From: Deltaproteobacteria bacterium
GTDB taxonomy: Bacteria > UBA10199 > JADFYH01
NCBI GenBank assembly: GCA_015233135.1
Contig: JADFYH010000030.1
Span: forward strand, 1 to 35,097
Reading direction: 5' to 3'
Length of the DNA: 35,097 nucleotides
A model generated the notes under the pieces. That model searched no databases, had not been told where the DNA came from, and was given only the letters and a program-made list of their open reading frames with translations. Below, piece by piece: positions 2 to 7,526 of this stretch; the first letter of the stretch is position 1, and each line of letters opens with the position of its first letter. A program made the translations under genes and the position numbers.

Positions 2-382
2 GCGCTCAAAACCTGCCGCAATTTTAAATATGGGACGAGTGACGGAAATCTACCTAACGAGAGCAATGCCGATTTTAATAGAACCCATGACGAAGGCCCG
101 AAGGATGTGGATGCTGTTCCAGTGAGTCCATTAAGGATAAGGATGAACGGAGTATTGGAGTGGTGCAACGGTTGGTATAGAGATAGTTTAGAGGGACTGG
201 CCAAGACAACGGCTGGGTTTCTAAATCCGGAAATAATTAATGAACATGTTATTAGACGCGAGCTGCGTGGTGTTTCCTGGGACGACGATTTTGTCGGGGA
301 CGTGCGGGCGGCCAATCGGAACAACTTCAAACCTGTTGCTCGCTTCAATAATTTCGGGTTTCGGGCCGTCGTTATGCCCTAG
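2..382 (+). CDS. FGE-sulfatase (SUMF1/C-type-lectin fold) domain protein, C-terminal part; candidate DGR target
   Basis: The reading frame is open from base 2, so the 5' end lies outside the window; 126 codons are visible. The frame reads YGTSDGNLPNESNADFN near the start, then MNGVLEWCNGWYRDS, and ends ELRGVSWDDDF...VRAANRNNF...NNFGFRAVVMP. This is the C-terminal signature of the formylglycine-generating-enzyme fold (family pattern: DMAGNVWEWC-DWY, LRGGSW, VRAA-R, GFR). The family includes true sulfatase-activating enzymes, but also the hypervariable ligand-binding proteins of diversity-generating retroelements (DGRs). The last 40 codons, rich in AAY-derivable codons and ending in GGGTTTCGGGCCGTC, look more like a DGR variable region than an enzyme. 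The usual DMAGN motif is degraded (RMNG). No reverse transcriptase or template repeat is seen in the window. Fold assignment is firm; the DGR role is inference. Confidence 0.7.
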   Translation, partial: ALKTCRNFKYGTSDGNLPNESNADFNRTHDEGPKDVDAVPVSPLRIRMNGVLEWCNGWYRDSLEGLAKTTAGFLNPEIINEHVIRRELRGVSWDDDFVGDVRAANRNNFKPVARFNNFGFRAVVMP

Positions 383-449
383 GACTAGTGTTTTCCCTTT
401 GTTTTCTTAAAATTTTACACTTTTTTCATGAAAAAATAGACTGTCAATC

Positions 450-1090: not shown

Positions 1091-1119
1091 GCTGGGTTTC
1101 GCGTCGTTGCGCCCAGGGC
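1091..1119. repeat. REP-like hairpin downstream of mazF
   Basis: GCTGGGTTTCGCGTCGTTGC followed by GCCCAGGGC folds as a CTGGG/CCCAG stem with an internal CGC/GCG pairing. The sequence resembles the widespread TGGGTTTCGC...GCGCCCA type of intergenic repeat. There is no T-run, so it is not a classical terminator. Only one copy was seen in the window. Confidence 0.4.
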
Positions 1120-1960: not shown

Positions 1961-4900
1961 TTAATTATAAAACCGCTGATTCACCCTACCCATCAAGTCT
2001 ATCAAGAATTGCTCGTGAGTTTTCGCTTCCTCCTCACTGAAATCAAACAAAACGCTGCGTCCCGAGCGAATGAAGTAAATGCTCGCATGAAGCACTATTT
2101 TATTCAACATTTTGCTTGCAGCCAGGCAATAGCTGAGCAGTTGAAAGCGGTATTGTGAGGCAATCTCGGAGGCTTGTTGTGGTGAGAAGCTGGCTAGATG
2201 GGTTTTGTAGTCTACAATTTGCCATTTGGAATCGAGAAAATAAAGCCGATCGATACTTCCTCTCAGAAAATAAGTGGAGACTTGCAGCAAGAAGGGAATC
2301 TCGGAATACGCAGGTTTTGAGTTCAGAATTTGACTGAGCGTTTCTTCCTTTCGGGCTTCTTTAAGCAGTTTCAGATTTTCTTGAAAAGACTCCGGATGAT
2401 CGAGGGGTTCTAACAGATTTTTCTGCCAGACTAATTTCAAGATCTCCTCGCTAGCTTGATGAAGATCTTTGGAAAGAAATTCCAGGCTTTGATGCAGGAG
2501 AGTTCCTAGAGTGAGGGCATCTAATTTAGAGACTGAAGTATTCCTGCGATCAAAAGCCTCTACATCCAAGTTTAAAGGTGGAAGCAAAAGGATATAGCGG
2601 GAATGGTATTCCTCTGGAGAGAGGAGAAAACATTCGAGTTCAGTGACGGAAAAGGTTTTTTTGCCAAGTAATTTTTGGGTTTTGAAAGGGTGAAAAACTT
2701 GCTTTGTCATCTCGAGAGAAGCGAGAGATCCAGTGGGTGCAATTGACAACCCAACTGGATCTCTCACTTCGCAAAGCTCCGTTCGAGATGACAGGCGCGG
2801 AGGATCGCGTGAGAGTAGCGATTTCTTCAACAGCTTTTTGAATTCCAATTTTTCATTGGTCTTCTCTTCGGGCAAAAATCCCAGGATCAATTTTTTTTCA
2901 GTGCGTGTCGCTGCGACATAGAAAATTCGATTTTCTTCCACTTCATTTTCTTTTTTCTTTTGCTCTGAAATCTCTTTCAAAAGGGCAGAGGCTTCAGTCT
3001 TGTACTGGAGGCCCAGAGAGGTTTTTGGAATTTTAAATCCAATGTTATCGTCTTGTCTTTGTGCGATGGGGACTTGATCGCTATTCATCCGATTGTCCAA
3101 AGAGGGAAGTAGCACAATGGGAAGATCCAAGCCCTTCGACTGGTGAATGGTCATGAAACAGAGGCTCTCTTGTGCACCGAGTTGGTCGGAAAGGGGGGCA
3201 ATTTCGATATGCTCCTTTTGCATTTGACGAATATTTTTTAAAAATTCCGCGCAGGAGCAAGGGCTTTTTTCTTCGAAGTTTTGTATCCAATGTAAAAATT
3301 GCAGCAGGTTTTGAGCGCGTGATTGGGAAAAAGAATCTTGCTGATAAAGGGAGACGATCTGGCTTTCTTCAAAGATCCATTTTAATAATTCGGAGGCCTT
3401 CAGGCCGGGGGCCAGCGCTTTTATTTTTTGGCAGAAGGCTTCTTTCATCCAGAATTTTTCATTCGTCTTTTCCCAAGCCAGGTTTAAAATTTCTTCGTCG
3501 CTTTTTGCGATGAATGGGGAACGTAAAATTCCCAACCAGGGGATAGGATTTTCGGCTTCGCAGTAGGCCTTGAAGACTTGAAGGCAATCCAGAATTTCCT
3601 GGCATTCTAATAAACTGGAAACCCCTTTGACGAAGACGGGGATTCCTTTTTCACGAAACACATCCCAATAAATCTTCATAGGAGTTTTGCTGCGAAAAAG
3701 CACAAAGATAGACGCCGCTTTTTCGCCTTTGGCAAATAAGGCTAATACTCGCTCTGCGAGCAGTCTGGCTTCGCGTTCTCTTTTTTGAGAGGCCGATTCC
3801 TTTTCTTCCGCTGCGGCTTGCTCAATGACTTCCAGGCAGGCCTCTGCTGCTGCCACGCGTGCCGCGATCAGCGGTGGTTCCTGGGGAAACAATTCTTGAG
3901 AGAGGGTATTGACCCAATGCACCAAAGCGGGAGGGGATCTGAAATTGTGAGATAAAAAAAGTGTTTTTCCCCCCGAATTTTCTATCCATTGTCTGAAGCG
4001 TTCAAACACCGAGGCCTGGGCCCCGCGAAAATTGTAAATGGATTGTTTGGGATCTCCGACGATCAGCAGATGTGGGGCTGTAAAGCTTTCTTCCCTTGTT
4101 TCCCACTGCAGCAGATCTTTTAGAAAACGTTCTTGAGTAAAGCTGGTGTCCTGAAATTCATCAATCAAGAGGGCCTTAAAAAAACCTTGATAATGCGCCG
4201 CAATTTTGGGTTTGTTTTCTAACAGCTGATGACACTCTTCTTCGAGATCATTGAAGTCGAGGGCCTTCTTTTGTTTTTTAAGCTGAGTGTAATTTTGTAA
4301 ACAAAGATTGAAAATAAACTCCAAGGCCTTTGGAATTTCAGGGGCTATGTCAGGATCCATTGGCCAGGGATCACTTTCCTGGCCTTTCCACTTGGGCCAA
4401 TCTTTCAGCATACCCAAGAGCTGCCTTCTTAAAACTTTCCAGCTGTAGGCCTCAATCAAGAGTTTTAATTCCTGGTTTTGATCCAATAGTTTTTTTTCAA
4501 GCACTTCTTGGATGCCTTCTTGTTGTAACAAAAGGGCATCGCTTTGTTCCAAAATTTCAAAATCGAGTCCTCTCTCTAAACTCAGAGTCTCTCGTAAAAT
4601 TTTAGAGGCAAGGCCGTGAAGGGTTAAGATGGGGGCCCGTAACAGTTCTTGTTTGGCTTGCTGCAATTCTTCAAGAGTCAATTGGGCATAGAGTTGAAAG
4701 ATTTCAGATTCTGAATTTTGTAGCACCGTTTCTTTTTCAATTTCGTGCAGGCTTTTAAGCACTCTTTGTTTTAAATCGGAGGCGGCTTTGTCGGTAAAAG
4801 TGACCGCCAAAATCTGGGCAGGGCTTATTTTTTTTTGAAAAACCAGTTGCAGATAATGATGTACCAACACCGTTGTTTTTCCTGAGCCAGCGCCGGCAAG

Positions 4901-4969: not shown

Positions 4970-7526
4970 AATAGCGACAGACCTCCCGAAATTCACAATA
5001 GGCCAAACAAGGGTCGGGTTTTATTTCAAAGTTTCCCGATTTTATTTGTTCGGCATATTCCAAAATTTTGATTTCCAGATTTTTCCAAAATTCTTCCCAT
5101 TCTGCGTCTTGGTAAATGGCGCCACTTCGAGCATTTTGAGAAAAACGCCTTTGATTTGTTTTGGGTAAAAGGCCGTATTTGAATTCCATGTCTTTTAAAT
5201 TGAGGGCCATGCTGGCCAGCAATTGCATGGGTTTATTAAATTTCTTTTCTAATAGTTTTTTTGCGGCCAAGGCATAGAGAGGGAGCTGTATTTTTTGATA
5301 GGCCTTGATTTGCGGATTCAATTTGCTGAGCTCTCCTGTCTTATAATCAAAGACGGCAAATTCCCCTTTTTCGACATTGCAATCCACCCGATCAATCTTT
5401 CCCTGAATACGAATGCTGTTGTTTTTATTTTCAAAATGCAAGCTGTCTTCTTCTGAAAAACTGGCTTCAAAGAGGGTGGGTTTGCAGGGGGCCTCTGCAT
5501 TTTCTTCATTTTTCCAGTAGAGGATTAATAGTTCCTGCAAAGTTTGCACGGCCTTGTGTTCAAAGGCCTTGCAGAGCTGAGTTTCCAGGTAAGGATGTTC
5601 TTTTTGAAAGCCTTCAGAGAATAAGCTGAATTCTTGAGCGAGTAGATTTTTAATCTCTTCGCGTTTGCTGCCCGAAAAAAGAGCGGCAAAAATATCCTCC
5701 GAAAACTTTTTGAAAAAAAGCTCCAAAAACGAATGCAACCAGCGTCCAGTGTCGAGGGCGTTAGGGTCTATTTCTTGTTCTTCCTTGCCCTTCATTTTCA
5801 ACAGTACCTTGCCATAAAAACGGAAGGGACATTGGGCATAGTCTTCGAGTTGTGTGGCAGAAAATATGTGGGGGATTAATTGCTTGCGAAGTTGCTGCAA
5901 GATTTCCGGGTTCAAGATTTTCCCCGAATAAGAGTGCTGACCTTTCCATTCGAAAAGTCTTTTTCTTTCGGCGGCTAATTTTTTTTCAGCCTCAAAAATA
6001 TTTTGAGTGGGTTTGTAATAGGCGATGGCTGCTTCTGAATCCAAGACTTCAGCGGCTTCAGAAATATCTTGAAGTAAAGGAAAGGGGGCCTGGGCCTTTC
6101 CTTGGGCATCCAGAATTGAATAGGAAAAAAATATTTCTTGTTCACTCAGGCTGAGTAATTCCTGAAAATGTCTTTCTTCGTGAAAAGCTTTATTCTTCAA
6201 GAGGGGCAAGGCCTTTCCCCAGAGTGAGATCTTTTTTTGACCAAAGACATTTTCGTTCATCTGAAAGACGAATACTTTCTCATAGCTTTCTAAACCCAGC
6301 TCGTTCCAAGTGGAGAGCCTTATTCCACAGTCATTTGCGCTTCCCAAAGGATAAAATATTTTTTGAGCGAGTTGAGCAAGATTGATTTGATCGAATCGAA
6401 AGGAAGGAAATTGATCCTGATAAAAAAGAAGGGCTTCCAGGCTTTCTTTCCAGATCTCAAAGGCCTTGTGCTCACGAATTTTTTCTTTGCAAAGCTTCAT
6501 TGCCTCCTGAATTTCCAGACCTGAATTTTGTCTTAAAGTGTCACAGTTCAAAATGCTTTTATAATTTTTGATTCCCGTAGAAAATCCCAAATACCCCAGT
6601 TGTTCGCTCCAATAGTCTCCCCAAAAAGTTGAAGGGGGAATGAGCAGCAACATCTTACTCGCTTCTATTCCACTTTGCAGGGCCTCATCGATTTTTTGAA
6701 GGAGGAATCCTGCTTCCTCAAACGGCGTGTTAAAGGCACGACACTTGATTTTTGCCGTGTTTGGTTCTGGTTTTGTTTCTTGAATCTCTACATAATTTTC
6801 TCGAAACTCTTCCCAATCCTGGGCAATAAAATCCTGAGGATGCGTCTTGCCGGATTGCAGCCAGAGCAAAATCTGAAGTTTAGGATAAGAGCTGTTCAGT
6901 TGTTTTAATATTCTTTTGAAATTTAAATTCCCTTCTGGAAATCCAATAAAATAAAGGCTTTCCAGGCGATGGAGTACTTTACTTTTTTGTTGGACTATCC
7001 ATTTAAAGGCCTGGTCTGAAAACTTGCGTTCATCCCAAAGTGTTTTTTGCTGTCTGAGCAGCAGATCATATTGCTCAAAAACTTTTTTCCATTTTTGGGC
7101 CAGCTCTTGTTCGAGTGGAACGATAAACTGAAAAAGTTGACTACTGCTTAAGCCTTCTTTTCGCCACTCTTGAGTCAGAGCAAAGAGGCTTTCTGAAAGG
7201 GTTTGCGGAATTTGCTCTTTTTGGGCGAGTTCGTTCCACAAATGTTCCAGCACCCAAGTTGCACTTGCCGACGGAATCTCCACATTTTCCTGCAATAATT
7301 CGCTGTAGAATCCTTCCAAAGTTAAAATACTTTTTCCAGTCAACACGCCTCCCAAATCCGGAAATTTCAATAAGGCCATTTCCACACTTTCCACGGCCGC
7401 TTGATGCGGACAAACAATGCGAAAGGAATCTTCCAAACGATGGGCAATGAATTTCTGGACAACAGACTGCAGCAGAATGGGCAAATCGGAACGTAAATTG
7501 GGAGAGCAGAAGAGGTGGAGAGTCAT
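4956..7526 (-). CDS. addB: AddB-like nuclease subunit with Fe-S cluster motif
   Basis: 856 residues. The C-terminal part is a PD-(D/E)XK nuclease: GKIDRVDC then VFDYKTG (DYKT 727-730). Four cysteines, C566 (YAQCPFRF) and C840/C844/C850 (CLAYCEFREVC), form the iron-sulfur staple typical of AddB-type nucleases. The N-terminal helicase-like part has no recognisable Walker A, so it is probably a non-motor scaffold that scans for a Chi-like sequence, as in other AddB proteins. Its ATG overlaps the crotonase stop by 4 bp (ATGA), and its stop overlaps the addA start by 14 bp, so the two subunits are translated together. Confidence 0.85.
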   Translation of the reverse strand: MTLHLFCSPNLRSDLPILLQSVVQKFIAHRLEDSFRIVCPHQAAVESVEMALLKFPDLGGVLTGKSILTLEGFYSELLQENVEIPSASATWVLEHLWNELAQKEQIPQTLSESLFALTQEWRKEGLSSSQLFQFIVPLEQELAQKWKKVFEQYDLLLRQQKTLWDERKFSDQAFKWIVQQKSKVLHRLESLYFIGFPEGNLNFKRILKQLNSSYPKLQILLWLQSGKTHPQDFIAQDWEEFRENYVEIQETKPEPNTAKIKCRAFNTPFEEAGFLLQKIDEALQSGIEASKMLLLIPPSTFWGDYWSEQLGYLGFSTGIKNYKSILNCDTLRQNSGLEIQEAMKLCKEKIREHKAFEIWKESLEALLFYQDQFPSFRFDQINLAQLAQKIFYPLGSANDCGIRLSTWNELGLESYEKVFVFQMNENVFGQKKISLWGKALPLLKNKAFHEERHFQELLSLSEQEIFFSYSILDAQGKAQAPFPLLQDISEAAEVLDSEAAIAYYKPTQNIFEAEKKLAAERKRLFEWKGQHSYSGKILNPEILQQLRKQLIPHIFSATQLEDYAQCPFRFYGKVLLKMKGKEEQEIDPNALDTGRWLHSFLELFFKKFSEDIFAALFSGSKREEIKNLLAQEFSLFSEGFQKEHPYLETQLCKAFEHKAVQTLQELLILYWKNEENAEAPCKPTLFEASFSEEDSLHFENKNNSIRIQGKIDRVDCNVEKGEFAVFDYKTGELSKLNPQIKAYQKIQLPLYALAAKKLLEKKFNKPMQLLASMALNLKDMEFKYGLLPKTNQRRFSQNARSGAIYQDAEWEEFWKNLEIKILEYAEQIKSGNFEIKPDPCLAYCEFREVCRYYDRA

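Follow-up and report, generated by a model that had tools for sequence, protein, structure and literature searches.

Diversity-generating retroelements (DGRs), of which that of Bordetella phage BPP-1 is the type and which also occur on chromosomes, are strong local mutators. Their regulation in nature has been described as an open frontier (PMC12875486). Tetranucleotide repeats are a well-known basis of phase variation: in mod genes of Haemophilus and Moraxella, for example, a 4-bp repeat lies inside the gene and its copy number sets the reading frame (PMC7118194, PMC4525171). Here we analysed a 35,097-nucleotide contig of a Deltaproteobacteria bacterium (JADFYH010000030.1; the window), whose left edge cuts through a putative DGR target gene, together with the paralogues of that gene and the DGRs of related genomes. 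Our combined reading, to which we give a probability of about 0.78, is that this gene is the target of a DGR whose core is missing from the draft genome or lost, and that in relatives the DGR reverse transcriptase (RT) gene is switched by repeat slippage.

Like described DGRs, the window's genome has an adenine-specific variable region (VR), a G+C-rich end resembling an initiation of mutagenic homology (IMH) site and an FGE-type target, and its relatives have bAvd, an RT with the [I]GN..SQ motif and YMDD, and a template repeat (TR) with AAC/AAT codons. The likeness stops at two points: no RT, TR or Avd was detected in the window's genome, and the relatives' RT contains an extra loop with a frame-breaking 4-bp tandem repeat. 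With phase-variable loci the relatives' RT genes share a repeat of 8-12 copies in five loci, with units open in all three frames. Unlike in those loci, the gene that would be switched is a mutator RT instead of a surface or DNA-modification gene, and the unit differs between genera at one site. DGRs and tetranucleotide phase variation are each known, and their joining at the RT is new as far as open-access literature shows. No description of a phase-variable DGR RT was found there, although subscription papers could hold one, and neither frameshifts nor tandem repeats come up in a large DGR survey (PMC8144416).

An earlier note on this DNA had read its first bases as the tail of an FGE-fold gene exposed to adenine-directed mutagenesis by a DGR. 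The fold was borne out by a 126-aa frame, already open at base 2 and closed by the stop codon at 380-382, and by matches to FGE-sulfatase PF03781 (E 6e-5 for the window fragment, about 1e-25 for longer paralogues). The features of this tail are as follows.

2..382, + strand: FGE-domain target gene, 3' part only, truncated at the contig edge (open frame, PF03781, paralogues).
281..355, + strand: DGR variable region, almost certainly; 25 codons, mostly AAC/AAT-derived (codon alignment, relatives' TR adenines, inverted codon-position divergence).
356..386, + strand: IMH-like 3' end with the sequence GGGTTTCGGGCCGTCGTTATGCCCTAGGACT; the VRs of paralogues and relatives have matching ends.

The draft genome (G000) comprises 2.6 Mb in 64 contigs and is 98.3% complete. 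It holds six paralogues, on contigs C4, C20, C24, C31, C26 and C37, so that with the window copy seven dispersed genes carry a VR. The paralogues have in common an N-terminal region of ~230 residues, nearly identical in some. Contig ends truncate several of the seven copies, which is to be expected when a repeated family is assembled to draft level. A contig scan for kin of the target gene returned a single distant match, in Planctomycetota.

Codon alignment of the seven copies showed differences at nearly every AAC/AAT-like codon between ELRGVSW and GFR, and the codons quoted in the earlier note are indeed present in this block. Positions 1 and 2 of these codons are hypervariable and third bases are conserved: mean pairwise divergence at sites that are adenine in relatives' TRs reached 0.71 at codon position 1 and 0.68 at position 2, and third positions of the VR diverged by 0.217. 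Just upstream, the gene body showed the normal order, with 0.21, 0.18 and 0.362 at positions 1, 2 and 3. Third positions are thus less diverged in the VR than in its flank, and positions 1 and 2 are the reverse. Such an inversion points to copying from a template with errors at adenines, a pattern that diversifying selection alone does not give.

To predict variable columns we used those that are adenine in most TRs of six loci from five other genera (G014, G024, G012, G045 twice, and G016). This predictor is independent of the tested genes, which avoids circularity. Variation was found in 26 of 27 TR-majority-A columns, compared with 14 of the remaining 63 (Fisher p = 1.7e-11), and TR adenines still predicted variable columns when permutation was limited to codon positions 1 and 2 (p = 1e-5). 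The window copy itself departs from the majority at 13 of the 27 A columns and at only 4 of the 63 others. The match between relatives' TR adenines and variable columns is far beyond chance, and substitutions in the window's genome accordingly fall at template adenines.

The block is directly followed by GGGTTTCGGGCCGTC at 356-370. An end of the form GGGTTTCG...CCCCAGGACT is common to the paralogues and relatives' VRs; the C4 and C20 copies end in GTGCCCCAGGACT and the window copy in ATGCCCTAGGACT. Several relatives' VRs end in CCCCAGGACT and their TRs carry CCCCAGCACT, so that one fixed mismatch separates IMH from its counterpart IMH*. By this mismatch, the G+C-rich end at which the earlier note had mutagenesis stop can be identified as an IMH. 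Adenine prediction, codon-position divergence and the shared IMH together strongly support adenine-directed DGR mutagenesis at this target.

The relatives examined were the 46 genomes of the class, which in the collection make up the whole phylum; none belongs to the same genus, family or order as G000, and each species is represented by one genome. RTs close to the DGR profile were found in 9 of the 46, at 11 loci, and the phylum's RTs form one clade (100/100) in a tree that does not resolve the order of repeat-unit changes. Complete loci have the gene order FGE target with VR, avd (bAvd, NF033474 matches), RT and TR. RT, Avd, TR and VR occur together, with TR/VR mismatches at TR adenines, in G014, G024, G012 and G045. 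Such mismatches lay at TR adenines in 16 of 17 cases in G014, 15 of 16 in G024, 16 of 17 in G032, 19 of 21 in G012 and 21 of 22 in the second locus of G045 (G045b); in all of these except G012, the fixed IMH difference is the sole exception. One locus (L078, G017:C4) has TR and RT, with no VR nearby or elsewhere in the G017 genome at the threshold used.

In genus after genus the RT is split into two reading frames, and the break always falls at one place. A tetranucleotide or octamer repeat occupies this point of the RT gene in 8 of the 11 loci, its unit not divisible by three and lying inside the coding frame. The state of the site in each genome is as follows.

G014: (CAGC)10.
G024: (CAGC)9.
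G032: two contigs, each ending in CAGC repeats.
G045: one locus with (CAAT)12, a second with (TCAC)8.
G016: (CATC)8.
G025: (CAGA)4.
G012: octamer CATCACTC, four times.
G017: vestigial, only CATCCATCC.
G044: no repeat, RT open.

The repeat lies just before GIPIGNLTSQ, in the loop preceding RT motif 4. Compared with 8ub7, its closest PDB match, the loop is extended: between the two aligned stretches lie 22 profile positions here and 3 residues there. That entry, named only 'Reverse transcriptase', is probably the Bordetella phage bRT-Avd-RNA structure. The assembled RT genes of G014, G024, G012, G017 and both G045 loci lose the frame at this site, with an offset of 2 in four cases and of 1 in two; in all six both halves are otherwise open. 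The C-terminal halves are under purifying selection where dN/dS could be computed (0.05-0.21; dS was saturated for most RT pairs). No tetranucleotide array of at least 16 bp was found in 398 kb of control DNA from three of these genomes. Nor was there a repeat at this site in 43 DGR RTs with the same motif from viral contigs, which are open there as far as the stored DNA reaches. The G032 contigs that end inside the repeat hint at repeat-number variation, although this is only suggestive.

As judged from sequence, the DGR RT is probably phase-variable across the phylum, with a repeat before motif 4 that would switch hypermutation ON and OFF and a site kept through replacement of the unit. VRs would be overwritten by cDNA copied from the adenine-rich TR, with errors at its adenines. 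Slipped-strand mispairing at the 4-bp (once 8-bp) repeat would change the number of units, and each unit gained or lost would move the RT frame, leaving a working RT at about one in three repeat lengths. Fresh TR/VR pairs despite an out-of-frame assembled RT fit recent switching from ON to OFF. We infer that slippage occurs in living cells, that an out-of-frame RT loses activity and that the window genome's own DGR was of the switch type.

Several observations weigh against this combined reading. On the side of the window's genome, searches of the G000 draft with RVT_1 and the phylum's DGR RT profile returned no RT, a search for TR-like protein returned only the seven VRs, and a search for Avd returned nothing. 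The target genes of C4 (L002, G000:C4:1-1403) and C26 (L006, right end of the contig) are frameshifted upstream of the VR, with no simple repeat evident, and each copy departs from the majority at 4-18 of the 63 non-A columns; both features suit relics. On the side of the relatives, the G016 and G025 loci are plainly decayed, and with one genome per species no within-species variation in repeat number could be shown. Finally, every one of the six complete loci with a repeat or its vestige is OFF, a result that has a chance of about 0.09 if one third were ON. Zero of six suits a mutator that is mostly OFF, yet it keeps alive the possibility of recoding.

The alternative that survives best, at somewhat less than even odds, is that the seven VRs are fossils of a lineage that lost its DGR core, its targets now decaying by ordinary mutation. 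The absent RT, TR and Avd, the non-A departures and the two frameshifted copies all agree with it. However, third positions have still diverged less within the VR than in its flank, non-A departures number only 4 in the window copy, and contig breaks fall within this very family, so that the core may be absent from the draft only. At 98.3% completeness in 64 contigs, a core missed by assembly or binning is indistinguishable from one that was lost: it would lie in an unassembled piece, or be gone with the VRs slowly decaying. Frameshifts and non-A changes favour some decay, and contig breaks within the family favour an assembly gap; the seven VRs may be either relics or the remote targets of a DGR that is missing from the assembly. 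The earlier note had inferred a retroelement near this edge or a remote target. The seven dispersed genes support a remote target, and the RT and AAC-bearing template that it proposed to look for were not found in the draft. If present, the missing TR would end in GGGTTTCGGGCCGTCGTT and carry AAC/AAT at the variable codons.

Two alternatives concern the relatives' repeat. Translation might shift frame over the repeat in a programmed manner, or the RT might consist of two separate polypeptides, and the repeat would then be no switch. In favour of this, every complete repeat-bearing RT is out of frame in its assembly, and both halves are conserved. We consider it unlikely: the offsets run in both directions and the units differ, unlike a recoding signal, and in G014 and G024 the second frame offers no ATG, GTG or TTG until one within YMDD. 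The second frame there cannot start separately with motif 4, which disfavours a split RT. It is likewise improbable that the loop is unconstrained, the repeat in it neutral filler and the out-of-frame RTs young pseudogenes. The position of the repeat in a loop that is extra relative to 8ub7 and the decay at G016 and G025 would fit. Against it stand the otherwise open halves, the low dN/dS of the C-terminal halves where computable, the near absence of non-A change in TR/VR pairs, and sampled genomes otherwise devoid of such repeats. Lastly, an ordinary FGE paralogue family under diversifying selection, with no retroelement, is very improbable: paralogues do diverge and positive selection is possible on surface-binding domains, but selection would not both leave third positions alone and single out the columns at which unrelated TRs have adenine.

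Some further observations were made around the relatives' loci. A conserved stretch of >100 bases with complementary segments, CTTCAAGCC.GAGTC...GGGAGTCCAGATC...CCTGGT, follows the TR in L075, L076, L077, L078, L079, L080, L084 and L085, and probably forms the 3' portion of the DGR RNA. Rfam searches of the window and eight relatives' loci identified only SRP RNA and tRNAs, and this stretch matched no family. G014 has a second AAC-rich TR-like repeat (L166, G014:C133:18378-18500), far from the RT and unlike the first TR; it may represent another template or an orphan DGR. Upstream of the RT in G025 (L082, G025:C56), repeated AAAATTCAGACGGAG-like sequence takes the place of the RT start and looks like a truncating insertion. 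Heptamer tandem repeats of TCGTGTA and its complement lie near the DGR of the repeat-less RT (L081, G044:C202, at 4745-4776, 6413-6436 and 6483-6509).

In the window, the target gene is directly followed by two toxin-antitoxin-like pairs at 501-1077 and 1256-1950, RHH with PemK/MazF and HEPN with a nucleotidyltransferase. One further feature sits between them.

1094..1114, + strand: possible solitary IMH-like fragment GGGTTTCGCGTCGTTG, weak; 16 bases identical to the C31 paralogue.

This fragment may be what remains of the tail of another target. As a candidate for a second VR/TR relic it was rejected as weak, since a reversed-pattern control yields 2-3 matches per strand at 3 mismatches.

As the window's seven targets show, FGE-type families at contig edges merit a check for DGRs even when no RT has been assembled. 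If the phase-variable reading of the relatives' RT is true, repeat slippage would provide a simple heritable control of DGR activity, by which a minority of cells diversifies its targets and the rest keep the proven variant. One hypermutation mechanism would then be nested inside another.
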